A stretch of 64,000 nt of DNA, from the NCBI GenBank assembly GCA_035285325.1, contig JAYKJB010000005.1:1-64000 (forward strand). Reading direction: 5' to 3'. This document shows positions 7,715 to 50,866 of this stretch, in pieces. The translations under genes and the position numbers were made by a program. This DNA comes from Candidatus Sericytochromatia bacterium. GTDB lineage: Bacteria; Cyanobacteriota; Sericytochromatia; S15B-MN24; JAQBPE01. Positions within the stretch are counted from its first letter, which is position 1; every line of letters begins with the position of its first letter. The notes under the pieces were generated by a model. It was not told where the DNA came from. It did not search any database and saw nothing but the letters and a program-made list of their open reading frames with translations.

Positions 7715-8971
7715 TCAGCCTCCCGCTGCACGGCCGGGCGCGAGGATCCCCTGCGGGTCCCAGGCCAGCTTGAGGGCGCGCATGATCGGGCGATCGGGGC
7801 GTTCCGGCCCCCACACATCCACGAGCCCACCTTTCCAGTTCGTTGGACAAGCCTCCACCATCCAGGTCCCGCGCAGGCGCGTCATCAATGACGCCAGCTC
7901 GGCGAAGAACTCAGCCGGTGCCTCGGGAGCGGTCGCCCAGCCCACGCGCACCACCCCATTGCCCACCTCCCCCCAGAGCGCGCCAGGGGGGCACGAGAGT
8001 GACGCCAGACCTGTCAGCAACTCCGGCACCCGATCGGGTAGGCTGATCAAGCGCAGGCGCAGTGCGCCACTCTGGCGCGGGGTGGAGAGGGACTGCAAGG
8101 CCTCCTGAAACGGGGCGCCGGTGTGATGGGCGATCGCCAGCCCCTGACGCTTGACCAGCGCATCAAACCGTTCGGCTTGCCAACTGACGGTCTCGGCCGC
8201 CCCCTCGAACACCACGGCCAGATACACCCCACGAGCCACGAAGGTGTGGTGGGCCTCCAGCAGACCGGTGGTCAGCGTCAGGGCGTGAGGCGCGAGACCT
8301 TCGGCCTTCACGGCGGCCAGCAGGGGAAAGGTGGCGTCCAGTGGGTCGCAATGCACGACCGAGAGCACCTGCTTGGCGGGCAGCGGGTCCAGCTTGAAAC
8401 AGACGGACGTGATCACCCCGAGCGAACCCAAGGCCCCGATGTGCAGCTTGCCAAGGTCGTAGCCTGCCACGCTCTTCACCACCGGGGCGCCGCTTTGCAC
8501 CAGGTTCCCCTGGGGAGTGACCACCTGCATCCAGAGCAGGCGATCGCGCCACGTGCCGTGACGCAGGCGACGCGGCCCGGCCACCCCGGCGGCGATCGCT
8601 CCCCCCACCGTGGTCCGTTCAGGCGCCTCCACATCCATGGGCAGGCACTGCCCGTACTGGGCCAGCTGGGCGTTCAGGTCGCTCAGCGTCACGCCACTGG
8701 AGACCGTCACCGTCAGGTCGCCGGGAGCGTGCGCGATGGGAGCCCGCAAGGCCGTCAGGTCGAGGGCGGCGTCATAGCGTTGGAGGGCATCTCCCAGCGA
8801 CATGTGGGTGCCGAACCCCCACGGGACCACCGCGAGGCGTTCGCGGGACGCTTCAGCCAGGCATTTCGCCGTGGCCTCGGTCGTGTCTGGCCGCCAGAGT
8901 TGTCCGGGCAGCCGGCCATCGACGCCAAAGGCCTCCAGCGGTCTTGCGGAGGGAAGTTCGGCCTTCAGCAC
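7715..8971 (-). CDS. glcE: Glycolate dehydrogenase FAD-binding subunit GlcE
   Basis: FAD-binding protein of the BBE/FAD_binding_4 (PCMH-type) family; 418 aa, a little longer than typical GlcE. The N-terminal half carries the flavin-binding pattern PWGFGTHMSLGD and later VVKSVAGYDLGKLHIGALGSLGVI, typical of GlcE. It lacks the longer C-terminal oxidase domain found in GlcD. Its start overlaps the GlcD stop by 7 nt, and its stop is 4 nt before GlcF, so the three subunits are translationally linked. Assignment rests on the family pattern plus operon context. Confidence 0.9.
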   Translation of the reverse strand: MLKAELPSARPLEAFGVDGRLPGQLWRPDTTEATAKCLAEASRERLAVVPWGFGTHMSLGDALQRYDAALDLTALRAPIAHAPGDLTVTVSSGVTLSDLNAQLAQYGQCLPMDVEAPERTTVGGAIAAGVAGPRRLRHGTWRDRLLWMQVVTPQGNLVQSGAPVVKSVAGYDLGKLHIGALGSLGVITSVCFKLDPLPAKQVLSVVHCDPLDATFPLLAAVKAEGLAPHALTLTTGLLEAHHTFVARGVYLAVVFEGAAETVSWQAERFDALVKRQGLAIAHHTGAPFQEALQSLSTPRQSGALRLRLISLPDRVPELLTGLASLSCPPGALWGEVGNGVVRVGWATAPEAPAEFFAELASLMTRLRGTWMVEACPTNWKGGLVDVWGPERPDRPIMRALKLAWDPQGILAPGRAAGG

Positions 8972-44474: not shown

Positions 44475-44664
44475 AGCGGCGGCTCTCCTGGGGGCTGCGA
44501 GGGGCGGCGGAAAATTCCCATTGCGACGAACGGCGGGCACCTGCGAGTGGGGGCCCAGGCCTCCTCAGCATGTACCCGACTTGAAATGGTCGGACACCCT
44601 TGGTACGTTGGGCGTGTGGTGGCCAATCGGCCTGCGTGATACCTGTTTCTCCGGGGTTTGTCAG

Positions 44665-46140
44665 TTGTCTTCCAGCTTGCGCACCGTCCTGGCCCTCGCC
44701 CTGCTGACCTCGGCCGGCGCCTGCACCCGTCCGAAAACCACCGCCACCACGGGCGTCGTGCCGACCGCAACGGCGACGCCGACGGTCGCCCCCGATGCGT
44801 TGCCGACACCTGACGTCGTGGCCACGGCCCCAAGCCCCACGCCCACGCCCGTGCCGACCCCCGTTCCAACGCCGCGCATCACCCTGCTGGAACCAGGAGC
44901 GAGCACGGATTTCAGTCGGCCCGGCCTGCGCATTGCCTTCACGGCAGAGGCCCCGGACGGCAAGCCCATCTCCGCGGTGCGCGTGCTCTACGACGGACGA
45001 GAGCTGGGCACGCTGGCGGGGCCGGGGCCTCTCTTCCGCTTGAACGACTGGAATCCCAACGTCGAAAATAACCTGGCCAACCCGGTCTCCAGCGTGCCCG
45101 TCCCGACCGGGGACCACCTGCTGGCCTTCGAGGCCAGTGACGAGCTGAAGCGCACGGCTCGCCTGGAGGTTCGCTTTTTCAAGCCGATCGCCCTGTCGAC
45201 CTGGCGGGAAATTCTCGGCATGCCGCTGCCGACGAGCCACCACGCCGTGGTGTCGGACGGGGCTGAACCGCCTACTTACAATGCGATCTGGGGTAGCTTG
45301 GACGGCATCGAGAGCAGTGTGGCGCCGCGTAACCAGGTCTTCTCCTTCAAGCCCGGCGGTGATGGCGCCTGGGCGACCCTGGCCCTCAATGGCACCGGCC
45401 TGCCCAAGGCCAGTTTTGCGTTGGCCGCGCATCCGAACGGGCAGACGTTTTACCTCCTGGGGGGGCGCCGGGGCACGTCCGACCTGCAGACGCTCGACGT
45501 GTACGTGCCGTTGCGCAAGACGATCGAGCAGACGAGCGTTTCCCTGATTCAGCCTCGCAGCGACGCGGCGGCAGTCACGCTGGAAAACTACGTGTACGTC
45601 TTCGGCGGCAAAGCCGCCGGGACACCGCTTACCGCCGTTGAGCGCGTGCGCATCGGGGGCGACGGCTTTCCCATCGGTGCGTTCGAGACGCGGGCGCCGG
45701 CCATCAACGCGCGGGTCGGGGCCTACGCGTTTGCGCAAGGCAAAGAGATCTGGCTGATTGGCGGCGGGCATCGCCCGATCGAGGTCTACGACACCGCTAC
45801 CAACAAATGGAGCCTGCTCACCGACGTGGCAGGGCGAACGGTGGGCACCCCTGAGGTGTTTTCATATGCCGCTGTGGTACCGGTGGGGGGCCGGCTGTTC
45901 TTCTTTGGCGGCCTGCGCGACGACGGCCAGCCCACCGAGCGAATCTACGAGTTTGACCCGGTCGGACGGCGCTGGCGCGATATGGGGCCGCTGCCGCAGG
46001 TGGCGGGCGAGCCAGTCGGCCTGCGCCCGGTCAACCGGTTGGCTGCTTTCTACCACGCCGGGTCGTTTTATCTGACGGGAGGCGTGACAAACCCGGCACG
46101 CAGTGCCTCCAATCGGGTGTTTCGAGGCGACACACTGTGA
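44665..46140 (+). CDS. Kelch-repeat lipoprotein (first of two)
   Basis: Surface-type lipoprotein of 491 aa. From the TTG at 44665 the first 20 residues form a signal peptide with Arg6, a hydrophobic core and Cys20 after SAGA. A Pro/Thr spacer (PSPTPTPVPTPVPTP) precedes an Ig-like domain of about 110 residues (STDFSRPGLRI... LYDGRELG... LNDWNP). A Kelch propeller follows with at least five blades (FYLLGG, VYVFGG, IWLIGG, LFFFGG, FYLTGG). The start is uncertain because no strong Shine-Dalgarno is present; a GTG near 44611 is an alternative. Probably a binding protein outside the cell; ligand unknown. Confidence 0.8.
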   Translation: MSSSLRTVLALALLTSAGACTRPKTTATTGVVPTATATPTVAPDALPTPDVVATAPSPTPTPVPTPVPTPRITLLEPGASTDFSRPGLRIAFTAEAPDGKPISAVRVLYDGRELGTLAGPGPLFRLNDWNPNVENNLANPVSSVPVPTGDHLLAFEASDELKRTARLEVRFFKPIALSTWREILGMPLPTSHHAVVSDGAEPPTYNAIWGSLDGIESSVAPRNQVFSFKPGGDGAWATLALNGTGLPKASFALAAHPNGQTFYLLGGRRGTSDLQTLDVYVPLRKTIEQTSVSLIQPRSDAAAVTLENYVYVFGGKAAGTPLTAVERVRIGGDGFPIGAFETRAPAINARVGAYAFAQGKEIWLIGGGHRPIEVYDTATNKWSLLTDVAGRTVGTPEVFSYAAVVPVGGRLFFFGGLRDDGQPTERIYEFDPVGRRWRDMGPLPQVAGEPVGLRPVNRLAAFYHAGSFYLTGGVTNPARSASNRVFRGDTL

Positions 46141-46259: not shown

Positions 46260-48839
46260 CTAAAAGTAAAGCTCTTCCATAATCAAGCGTGTCTCTGCGA
46301 TGTTAATCGTCCCAGTTGCGCTATCATCTGCGTCGGTGTTGTTATTGCCGACCCCCAGGTTGAGATCGACCTCCAATCGCTGGGGAGCTGTATTCCCGGG
46401 AGTACCGTAATCCAAAATTCCCAGGACGGGGAAACTCGCCGACCAAGCATTGTTGACTGAGCCGTACAGCACTTGCCTGTAGATCGTATTCATGGTTCCC
46501 CCGGCATTCCCGACCCGGACCTCGACCTGAGCGAGTCCAAGTGTGGCCGTGGCAGACCGGGCATGGATCGTTACATAACCAGACACCTTGACGCCCCGGC
46601 CCAGTGGCGTGGCGGTGATACCATTTTGGCCGATCAGGTTGTGGGTACCAGCGATCTTGGTGACGGGGGGCCCCACCGTCAATCCATTGTTGGTGGTGAA
46701 AGATCGGGTTGTGGTATTGGGAGAGTTGACGGTGATCCAACCAGTCTGTGCAACGGTCGAGAAGCGCGCGGCGTTCAAGAGTGGGGCTTGCTCGCCCCCA
46801 ATCCCGACAAAACTGTCGACGGGGAACGGCGTTCCAGCCACTACGTTGCCAGGATAGCCAAGCGGTGTCACGGTCAGGACATTGCCGGCCTTGGAAACCA
46901 GGCGCACGTGGACCCGGTTCGTGTTGGTGGGATGGGACACGATCAGCACACTGTTCGGTACGAAGCTGTCGCCATTGCCCACCGTGATGGTGCCGTTCAC
47001 GCCAAAATTGGTGGTGGTGTACTCAGCGGTGGTCCTGGAGACCGACCCCACGTCGCCCTTGGCTCCCGTTGGGCCCGTCGCCCCTGCGGCCGCGATGTTG
47101 GCGCCGGCGCTGAAGGTCACAGGGAAAGCGGTGTCACTGGGAGACCCCAGGGCGACCAGGCTCAGAACGTTGGTGGCTGGTTTTCCATCGATGCGCGCGT
47201 GGATGCGCGTGGTGCCTTCGGTGACGACCACGAAGCCGCCCACCACGAAGGCCGCGCTGTCGACCACGTTCACGTTGACGGCGCTGGTGTTGTTGGCGGC
47301 GGTGTAGGTGGCAGCCGCCGCGATGGTCGTGATGGGCGAGGAACCCGTGGCGCCCTGCAGGCCTTGGGGGCCCGGCGCGCCGGCTGCGCTGACAAAGGAA
47401 CCGATGGCGAAGGTCTGGGAGGCGGCTGCATCGCCGGTGGCATTCAGGGGCGCAATTCGCAGGGTTCCCGAGGCCTTGCCGTCGACCCGCGCGAAGATAC
47501 GCTTGGCGTTGTCACTGAGCAGAATGGTCGCATTCGGAGCGAAGGCGGTATTATCGGCGACGGTGAGATCCGACACGACCCCGGCGGTGGTGACCGTGTA
47601 GGGGGCCGTGATGGTGGTGAATGGCGTGGCGCCCGGCGCGCCTTGAGGCCCCACCTCGCCCGCGACCGCGATGAAGGTGCCCGCATTGAAGGTGAATCCC
47701 GTGGCCGCGTCGCCGGGGGCGTTCAGCGGCGTGATGTTCAAGGTGGTGGCGGTCTTGGTGTTGAGTCGGGCGTGGATGCGCTGGGTGCCGTTGGTCACGA
47801 TCACCACGCCCTGTTCCACGAAGGCAAGGGTGCTGGAATCCACCGTGATCGTGCCGGCGGTGCCGGCGGGTACGGTGTAGGCGTTGCCGGTGGCAATCTT
47901 TGTCACCGGGGAGGGGCCGACCAACCCTTGGGAGCCTTGGGGCCCCTGCGCCCCCACGACAGCCACGCTGGTGCCGGTGGTGAAGGTGGTTCCGTCCGGG
48001 GCATTGGCCGGCGTGCTGACCGGCAAGAAGGTCAGCTGCGTGGCGGTTTTGCCCTTGAGTTCCACGTAGAGCTTGTTGGTCCCCTGAGAGAGCAGCAGAA
48101 TGCTGCCCTCGATGAAGGGCGCGGTGTTGGCCACGGTCACGGTGGCCTGGGTCGCCGCCGAGGTGTAGTTGGCGGTGGTGTTCGTGATGGGAGAGGCGCC
48201 GACCGTGCCGGGGTCGCCTTGGTTTCCTTTTTCGCCCGGGACACCCTGAACGCCACGCAAACCGGCGATACCCACCGTCGATCCAACCGGGAAGTTGGTA
48301 CCCACCGCGGCGTCGCCCCCGTAGTTCAGGGGCGTGAGCCGCAGGCCCCGCTCGGGGGTGCCGGTCACCAGGGCGTGAAAGCGGCCTGCAACCCCAGCCG
48401 ATACCACCACGATCGCCCCCGGCGCGAAGCCAAGTTCCCGCTCCACGGGGAGGGTCGTGTCAGCGAGGTTGAGGGAGTATGCCGCAGTGGTGACGGTCAC
48501 CGGGTTGGCGCCGGCCGGGCCCTGCTGTCCCACCCCCGTCGGGCCGCGGGCCCCCTCAGGGCCGGTATCGCCCTTGTCTCCCTTCGGTCCAACCCCGCCC
48601 GTGTCCCCCTTGGGTCCAGCCGGACCCGTAGCGCCAGCGGCACCGGGGTCGCCCTTGTCGCCCTTTGGCCCGATCAGCCCGGTGCTGGTGGTGCCCGTGG
48701 CCAGTGAGGCTGGCAGCTTGGCGGCCCGGATGCTGTTGGTGGCGAACGGCAGCGCTCCCCCGCAAGCAGTGGCGTTTAGCGCCAGCAGGGACGACAGGAC
48801 CGTGATGGTGGACCGGGGCGGGAAGCGTCGGGCGGCCAT
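46260..48839 (-). CDS. Collagen-like lipoprotein with six beta-rich repeats
   Basis: Protein of 859 aa. The signal ends in the lipobox ATAC with Cys26. Residues 54-110 are a nearly continuous collagen-like Gly-X-Y region (about 18 triplets, with a break near 103). Six repeats of about 80-90 residues then begin near 113, 216, 310, 405, 501 and 600. Each has a strand-rich body ending in a pattern like RIHARLDGK...L.I.PLN.PGDAA...F..GS, and each is joined to the next by a short Gly-X-Y linker (GPQGLQGATG and similar). A different C-terminal beta domain (685-859) completes it. The layout suggests a rod-like or fibre-forming adhesin. I know no named family for the repeat. Confidence 0.82.
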   Translation of the reverse strand: MAARRFPPRSTITVLSSLLALNATACGGALPFATNSIRAAKLPASLATGTTSTGLIGPKGDKGDPGAAGATGPAGPKGDTGGVGPKGDKGDTGPEGARGPTGVGQQGPAGANPVTVTTAAYSLNLADTTLPVERELGFAPGAIVVVSAGVAGRFHALVTGTPERGLRLTPLNYGGDAAVGTNFPVGSTVGIAGLRGVQGVPGEKGNQGDPGTVGASPITNTTANYTSAATQATVTVANTAPFIEGSILLLSQGTNKLYVELKGKTATQLTFLPVSTPANAPDGTTFTTGTSVAVVGAQGPQGSQGLVGPSPVTKIATGNAYTVPAGTAGTITVDSSTLAFVEQGVVIVTNGTQRIHARLNTKTATTLNITPLNAPGDAATGFTFNAGTFIAVAGEVGPQGAPGATPFTTITAPYTVTTAGVVSDLTVADNTAFAPNATILLSDNAKRIFARVDGKASGTLRIAPLNATGDAAASQTFAIGSFVSAAGAPGPQGLQGATGSSPITTIAAAATYTAANNTSAVNVNVVDSAAFVVGGFVVVTEGTTRIHARIDGKPATNVLSLVALGSPSDTAFPVTFSAGANIAAAGATGPTGAKGDVGSVSRTTAEYTTTNFGVNGTITVGNGDSFVPNSVLIVSHPTNTNRVHVRLVSKAGNVLTVTPLGYPGNVVAGTPFPVDSFVGIGGEQAPLLNAARFSTVAQTGWITVNSPNTTTRSFTTNNGLTVGPPVTKIAGTHNLIGQNGITATPLGRGVKVSGYVTIHARSATATLGLAQVEVRVGNAGGTMNTIYRQVLYGSVNNAWSASFPVLGILDYGTPGNTAPQRLEVDLNLGVGNNNTDADDSATGTINIAETRLIMEELYF

Positions 48840-49153: not shown

Positions 49154-50866
49154 GTGTCACGCAAGCCCCAGGACCCATCGAACGAGATGTCCGCAGCGTC
49201 GCTTCACGGGCGTCATTCGCTGGTCGCTTGCCTGTTGCTCACGGCGCTGATGAGTCAGATCGTGGTCGGCTGCGACGACGTGCCCAACACGGTCACGATG
49301 GCTGGCGGCGCCTCCTCGCCCGCACCTTCGCCCTCCCCCTCGGCTTCCGGTTCGCCGGGTGCAGCGGGAGACCCGGCGGCCAGCGGCACGGTTGAGGCCA
49401 ACCCCTCCGCCACGCCGACCGCGGCCACCGATGTGCCCGATTCGGCTCAGCCTGTCGCCAGTGCCTCGGTGCCGGTAATGCCCACGCCCACCCCGCGCCC
49501 GACGCCGGCGCCGCTCAGCACCCCGGTGCCGGCCGTCAAGCTGTCTTTCCTGTCGCCCACGTCGAGCACCGATTTCACTCAGGATAAGATCCAGGTCAAG
49601 TTGAAAATCGAGGTTCCGCTGGGCACGGACATCAAGATCGACCGGATGGCCCTGCTCTATGACGGGGTGGAACTGGAGACCAAGAAGGGGGGGACCGACC
49701 TCGAATTCATTCTGGACGAGTGGAACCCTCACGTGGTGAAGGATTTCAAGGGGTCCAAGGCCTCGGTGGTCACGCCCAAGCGCTTCGGGCAACACACCCT
49801 GCGCGGAGAGGTCTACACCGCGGCGGGCGCCAGGTCCGAGGTCGAATTCACGTTCGACAAGCCTCTGCTGTTCAAGGGGTGGGTCAATACCAGCCCCTAC
49901 AACTTCGCCGTCCTGCCGACGCTGACCCCCCCTCGCGCCCATCATGCCGTGGTCGGGGTCACGCGTCCCAGCAACGGCGATCTGTTCGCCTGGTTCGGCG
50001 TGAGTGCCACCACGCCGGAGTTCGACGGCTTGTTCCGGCTGCCCATCAATCCCACTCTGCCGCGTGGTTGGAGCGCGGAACCGGCGACCGGTACCAACTA
50101 TCGTCGGGCAGCTGGCGTCGCGGGCATTAACAATCTGCTGTATCTGATTGGGGGCGAGGTCCGTACGGGGCCAGGGGCCCTGATTCCTTCCAATGACGTT
50201 TCGGTGTATGACATCACCCGCAACGAGTTCAATGCGGCCGTGCCCGACCTCCCGACCACCCTGGTGGACCCGGCGGTCACGGTCCATCAGGGTTTCCTGT
50301 ATGCCTGCGGAGGCTACCTGGATACCAGCGTATCCAAGACCGTTTCCACGCTCTATCGCATCGAACTGGACGGTTCCGGCGCGGTCAAGGGGCTGGCCTG
50401 GACCAAGCTACCGGATGTCCCGAAAGAGGCAGGCCGCTCCGGTGCGCGCCTGGTCGGCATTGGTCGCAACCTTTACATGGTTGGGGGAACCAAGAAGACC
50501 GGGGTCAAGGACCGAACCATCATGCGTTACAACCTGGACGCCAGTGCCTGGTCCGAGGAGCCGGACCTGCTACCACGCGGCGTCGACCACCCGGTGGCGG
50601 TCAATCTGGCTGAAAAACTTTGGATCTTCGGGGGCGACGACAGCGATGCGACCAAGAGCGTGAGTAGCACAGCCATCCGTTACGACCCCCTGACGCGCAC
50701 GGCGAAGGCGATGGGCGGCGCGGCCGACTTCCCCACCGGTCGCGAGCGAGCCGGCGCCGGATACGCCATCGTCGACAATTACCTGTACGTGGTGGGCGGC
50801 TATGCCTATGACCCGGCGGGTGCCCCGGTGTACCTGTCGGATGTGATTCGCGCCGACGCGCTATGA
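49154..50866 (+). CDS. Kelch-repeat lipoprotein (second, related to the one at 44.7 kb)
   Basis: Lipoprotein of 570 aa with the lipobox VVGC (Cys40 from the GTG at 49154, which has AGGAAAGGA upstream; an ATG at 49187 gives a shorter signal). A long Pro/Ser/Ala spacer is followed by the same Ig-like domain as its paralogue (STDFTQDKIQV... LYDGVELE... LDEWNP). At least five Kelch blades follow (LYLIGG, FLYACGG, LYMVGG, LWIFGG, LYVVGG). The two genes bracket the collagen-like gene. Ligand unknown. Confidence 0.84.
   Translation: MSRKPQDPSNEMSAASLHGRHSLVACLLLTALMSQIVVGCDDVPNTVTMAGGASSPAPSPSPSASGSPGAAGDPAASGTVEANPSATPTAATDVPDSAQPVASASVPVMPTPTPRPTPAPLSTPVPAVKLSFLSPTSSTDFTQDKIQVKLKIEVPLGTDIKIDRMALLYDGVELETKKGGTDLEFILDEWNPHVVKDFKGSKASVVTPKRFGQHTLRGEVYTAAGARSEVEFTFDKPLLFKGWVNTSPYNFAVLPTLTPPRAHHAVVGVTRPSNGDLFAWFGVSATTPEFDGLFRLPINPTLPRGWSAEPATGTNYRRAAGVAGINNLLYLIGGEVRTGPGALIPSNDVSVYDITRNEFNAAVPDLPTTLVDPAVTVHQGFLYACGGYLDTSVSKTVSTLYRIELDGSGAVKGLAWTKLPDVPKEAGRSGARLVGIGRNLYMVGGTKKTGVKDRTIMRYNLDASAWSEEPDLLPRGVDHPVAVNLAEKLWIFGGDDSDATKSVSSTAIRYDPLTRTAKAMGGAADFPTGRERAGAGYAIVDNYLYVVGGYAYDPAGAPVYLSDVIRADAL

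Follow-up and report, generated by a model that had tools for sequence, protein, structure and literature searches.

A probable collagen-like lipoprotein of a Cyanobacteriota bacterium with repeated modules related to a phage tail-region module

The DNA analysed here is a stretch of 64,000 nucleotides (the window), in which an ALDH gene (minus strand), a Kelch gene (plus), a collagen-like gene (minus), a second Kelch gene (plus), UppP/BacA (plus) and a gene for a zinc-ribbon protein (minus) follow one another. The collagen-like gene (46260-48839, minus strand) is an open reading frame running from 48839 to 46260, which encodes 859 residues plus a stop; it starts with ATG and has GGAG upstream of the start. 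A long plus-strand frame at 46473-48707 was also considered, and was interpreted as a mere shadow frame, antisense to a repeat gene rich in GC. The features of the locus are as follows:

44647..46140, plus strand: flanking lipoprotein with a Kelch propeller (open frame whose start codon is not fixed; synteny)
46260..48839, minus strand: collagen-like modular lipoprotein gene, 859 aa
48762..48839, minus strand: N-terminal signal region, residues 1-26, up to and including the putative lipid cysteine C26 (sequence)
48528..48680, minus strand: first collagen block, residues 54-104, 17 GXY triplets (Pfam, GXY runs)
48264..48506, minus strand: module M1, residues 112-192 (self-alignment, module profile)
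47955..48194, minus strand: module M2, residues 216-295, structure predicted (self-alignment, profile, model)
47661..47912, minus strand: module M3, residues 310-393 (self-alignment, module profile)
47382..47627, minus strand: module M4, residues 405-486 (self-alignment, module profile)
47085..47339, minus strand: module M5, residues 501-585 (self-alignment, module profile)
46800..47045, minus strand: module M6, residues 599-680 (self-alignment, module profile)
46263..46799, minus strand: C-terminal domain, residues 681-859, also present in a related genome's paralog that has no modules
49154..50866, plus strand: second flanking Kelch-propeller lipoprotein (synteny)

The N-terminus of the protein is hydrophobic and ends in LNATA-C26, with the lipobox Ala at −3 and with C26 being the only cysteine of the whole sequence, while the sole Pfam match within the 859 residues is Collagen (PF01391), which at 40.5 bits lies above the curated cut-off of 27.2. 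Both observations agree with the sequence-only reading, which had described a collagen-like lipoprotein with one long Gly-X-Y block. The lone cysteine at the lipobox speaks for lipidation and the Ala at −3 against it, and the protein is a probable lipoprotein. The GXY triplets are distributed over blocks at residues 54-104 (17 triplets), 190-216 (9), 296-310 (5), 394-405 (4), 487-501 (5) and 586-600 (5), so that GXY linkers of 4-9 triplets lie between modules of 80-85 residues each. The same reading had set a C-terminal domain apart, and residues 681-859 are indeed unlike the modules; the model of this domain is poor (pLDDT 52), for which reason the fold search based on it was set aside.

The homology of six β-rich modules was borne out by self-alignment, as all 15 pairs among M1-M6 score between z = 7.3 and 19.6 above shuffles, and in each pair 0 out of 300 shuffles equals the real score. 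Identity among the modules amounts to 22-47%, which indicates that the repeat is old. Their proposed common core, resembling RIHARLDGK and PLN.PGDAA, is clear in M3-M5 and is found only as variants in M1, M2 and M6. The AlphaFold model, which stands for one module (M2) predicted as a monomer, is a six-strand β module with pLDDT 96.4 and pTM 0.84. Comparison of this model with the PDB using Foldseek returned generic barrels only (TM 0.5-0.6), and comparison with a viral library of predicted structures returned large phage proteins at TM 0.85-0.88 and rmsd 1.5-1.7, including a protein of Nodularia phage vB_NspS-kac65v151 and several entries from uncultured Caudovirales titled 'Collagen triple helix repeat'. 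At the sequence level, single modules gave no convincing match to Pfam, PHROG or PDB sequence families, and the matches of the full protein to PHROG tail fibres were discounted, being mostly due to collagen runs. A match to a well-known domain family, which the sequence-only reading had named as speaking against it, was only half obtained: no named family matched, but an unnamed phage module did.

This phage module is found in Nodularia phage gp041 (QBQ73073.1, 1227 aa), which has four copies at 661-1017 of the open frame with GXY linkers between them, belongs to PHROG 31840, annotated 'unknown function', and has its gene downstream of that for the major tail protein. Using the Nodularia phage modules as query, 27 viral contigs were retrieved, and altogether 70 modules were gathered from 33 ORFs in 28 viral loci, with at most six per protein and in alternation with GXY runs. 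Six modules per protein are present in three viral loci (L125, L127 and L130), and in L130 a long protein that, by eye, resembles a tape measure is encoded upstream of the one with six modules. From this genomic context and the titles given to related records, we infer that the module-bearing phage proteins are tail fibres. The view that an alternating layout is uncommon as such is not supported, since gp041 and the three six-module proteins share this plan; within the sets sampled, it is only among cellular proteins that such an arrangement stands out.

The relationship between the two sets of modules was evaluated by profile comparison. Aligned with hhalign, the window modules score 84.8% (E 6.6e-6) against the four phage modules and 95.5% (E 1.5e-8, over 76 columns) against the enlarged phage set, the control with unrelated C-terminal profiles giving 0.4%. 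The phage-module profile matches M1 to M6 in register, M1 being the weakest, with a total of 30.7 bits, the maximum in 500 shuffles of the modules being 5.0 bits; when this profile is run over 7230 ORFs the window protein tops the list and, in the reverse search, a viral module protein ranks first of 1102 viral ORFs (E 3.3e-5). This confirms, at the level of sequence profiles, that the window modules are homologous to the phage tail-region module. The kinship is distant: identity between window and phage modules is 17-25%, and most phage copies conserve Trp28 and a GYY motif that the window modules lack. The latter have Phe or other residues instead and are therefore seen as a divergent branch outside the phage subfamily. 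Searches of single modules against phages and plasmids using tblastn gave nothing convincing; the method is too weak at such a distance and these negatives carry little weight, since with a Nodularia phage sequence as control query it recovered nothing beyond close phages.

As to cellular genomes, the profile of the six modules matched one further genome, of the same family, among 59 relatives, and added nothing convincing from 386 genomes of the phylum; two weak matches were left out of the count, one in G169 (PurD-like) and one in G007, to a different protein whose strand pattern is similar. A whole-protein search of contigs was swamped by the collagen part and gave generic collagen proteins, and the module profile found no module in those 80 loci. 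In scans run without a positive control, the phage profile had no match in 35 genomes of diverse phyla, and the window profile none in 195 genomes of the phylum of locus L071. Within the sets sampled, cellular use of the module looks rare, being confined to two related genomes. Two minor observations were made in the course of these searches. An ORF starting at position 930 of locus L104 (G007:C127), from a genome of the same order, contains repeated segments such as TLTVSDGTKFTVGDILLI that are weakly module-like, and its match (E 1.5e-4 in a three-locus search) is possibly that of a distant relative. Also, a different genome of the phylum has a 1680-aa open frame (L148, G279:C2:1107808-1108071) with one phage-type module (E 1.5e-6) and no collagen in the part read.

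The ortholog in the related genome (L099, 4936-6945) has 669 residues and four modules, and shares with the window protein the lipoprotein start, the collagen block, the GXY linkers and the C-terminal domain. A paralog in that same genome (L107, 1492-2742; 416 aa) lacks the modules, and consists of a lipoprotein start, one long collagen stalk and a C-terminal domain as in the window protein. The module number thus varies as 6, 4 and 0 across three related proteins, and the fact that the paralog without modules and the ortholog with four are built alike points to the stalk and the C-terminal domain as the common frame, in which the modules look like optional inserts.

Around the ortholog the gene order matches that of the window, inverted, and no phage genes are present among the ALDH, Kelch, UppP and zinc-ribbon neighbours. 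The two flanking Kelch lipoproteins are distantly related to each other and have Pro/Thr-rich linkers; within 17 relatives examined, an ortholog of the first Kelch gene is found only in the two genomes with the collagen gene. In addition, Omp85-family genes are present, and hence the cell has an outer membrane, that is, a diderm envelope.

These data were weighed against three other readings of the locus. Since both the modules and their alternation with GXY runs are those of phage proteins, the gene could encode a tail fibre of a phage or prophage, or else a component of an injection device derived from a tail, and no cell-surface protein at all; however, the N-terminus is of lipoprotein type, the synteny with ALDH, Kelch and UppP is kept in a second genome, and the tail sheath family was not found in the window genome while three control genomes were positive, which makes this reading highly improbable. 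Improbable too, if less so, is that small β barrels joined by GXY runs are simply an easy solution that arose by convergence, with no common descent with the phage modules. Such an origin would fit the identity of only 17-25% and the missing Trp and GYY signature, but not a full-length, in-register profile match (E 1.5e-8) with the same position relative to the GXY linkers, nor the failure of shuffled modules and other domains to match the profile.

A further reading deserves more weight, even if we consider it doubtful: that of an envelope scaffold, either a periplasm-spanning or a surface-coat rod, which would hold the two Kelch lipoproteins and would not be an adhesin. Indeed, the collagen gene is found only beside the Kelch pair, both co-occur in the same two genomes, and UppP, a cell-wall lipid gene, is adjacent. 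Nevertheless, UppP may be adjacent by chance, the strand of the Kelch genes is opposite to that of the collagen gene, and the paralog with the same C-terminal domain is located in another neighbourhood, so that the Kelch genes are dispensable for some members.

Among the surface collagen-like proteins of bacteria, the cell-encoded Scl, BclA and Burkholderia Bucl combine a GXY stalk with a non-collagen head and have surface or adhesion roles. To our knowledge, none of these has repeated globular modules in alternation with collagen runs. In this respect Nodularia phage gp041 is closer, having the same module fold (TM 0.88), short GXY linkers and profile homology to the window protein; unlike the latter, it is phage-encoded, has no lipobox, has Trp and GYY motifs in its modules, and differs in its N- and C-terminal parts. 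Another point of comparison is provided by the prophage collagens of E. coli O157, of which EPclA, with one collagen run, is trimeric, has a C-terminal domain that trimerises and shows the CD signal of collagen, and EPclB, with two collagen runs, appears in electron microscopy as globular beads on flexible stalks (PMC3368898). Like the window protein, both have collagen stalks with globular domains between them and at their ends; they are, however, phage-borne and carry PfN, Pf2 and PfC, none of which is matched in Pfam by the window protein.

On the model of the E. coli EPcl prophage collagens, we propose that the window protein would form a trimeric fibre, and the reading we prefer, at a probability of about 0.6, is that of a trimeric surface fibre that is anchored by a lipid, bears an adhesive head at its C-terminal end and owes added length to beads of the phage-fibre type. 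A lipid would be attached to C26 and the protein would be exposed on the external side of the outer membrane; the C-terminal domain would nucleate the trimer and form the distal head, a probable ligand-binding tip. The GXY blocks would zip into a triple helix, the first of them, at 0.86 nm per triplet, being some 15 nm long, and the modules would be beads that set length and stiffness, possibly offering extra binding sites. Trimer formation is plausible, as collagen sequences imply trimers; the linkers of 4-5 triplets are short for a triple helix to be stable unaided. The most likely role is to adhere to another cell, a polymer or a surface, in which the flanking Kelch lipoproteins might take part; a structural partnership with these lipoproteins is the main rival. 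The modules probably came into the collagen lipoprotein from a phage fibre gene through recombination and then multiplied, a direction of transfer that rests on uneven sampling. A more inclusive account is possible and is advanced only tentatively: that one Cyanobacteriota family, probably non-photosynthetic, domesticated a tail-fibre module of phages, turning it into part of a trimeric, lipid-anchored fibre on the cell surface that differs in length between proteins. The gene would sit in a conserved cassette, and the two Kelch propeller lipoproteins would join the fibre in an attachment complex.

The protein is a variant of a building plan already used by phages and not a new kind of protein. 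What the locus adds is that an unnamed phage fibre-like module, absent by sequence from Pfam and from solved structures, is tied to a putative cellular surface protein, which makes it a small testable case of parts that the surface fibres of bacteria have in common with those of phages. The module merits a Pfam entry and a structure.

The window genome has a second protein in which globular modules alternate with GXY linkers (L002, 1078-1836; G000:C48, about 8054-8812). Its modules are two CBM5/12 carbohydrate-binding modules, and it is possibly a phage tail protein.
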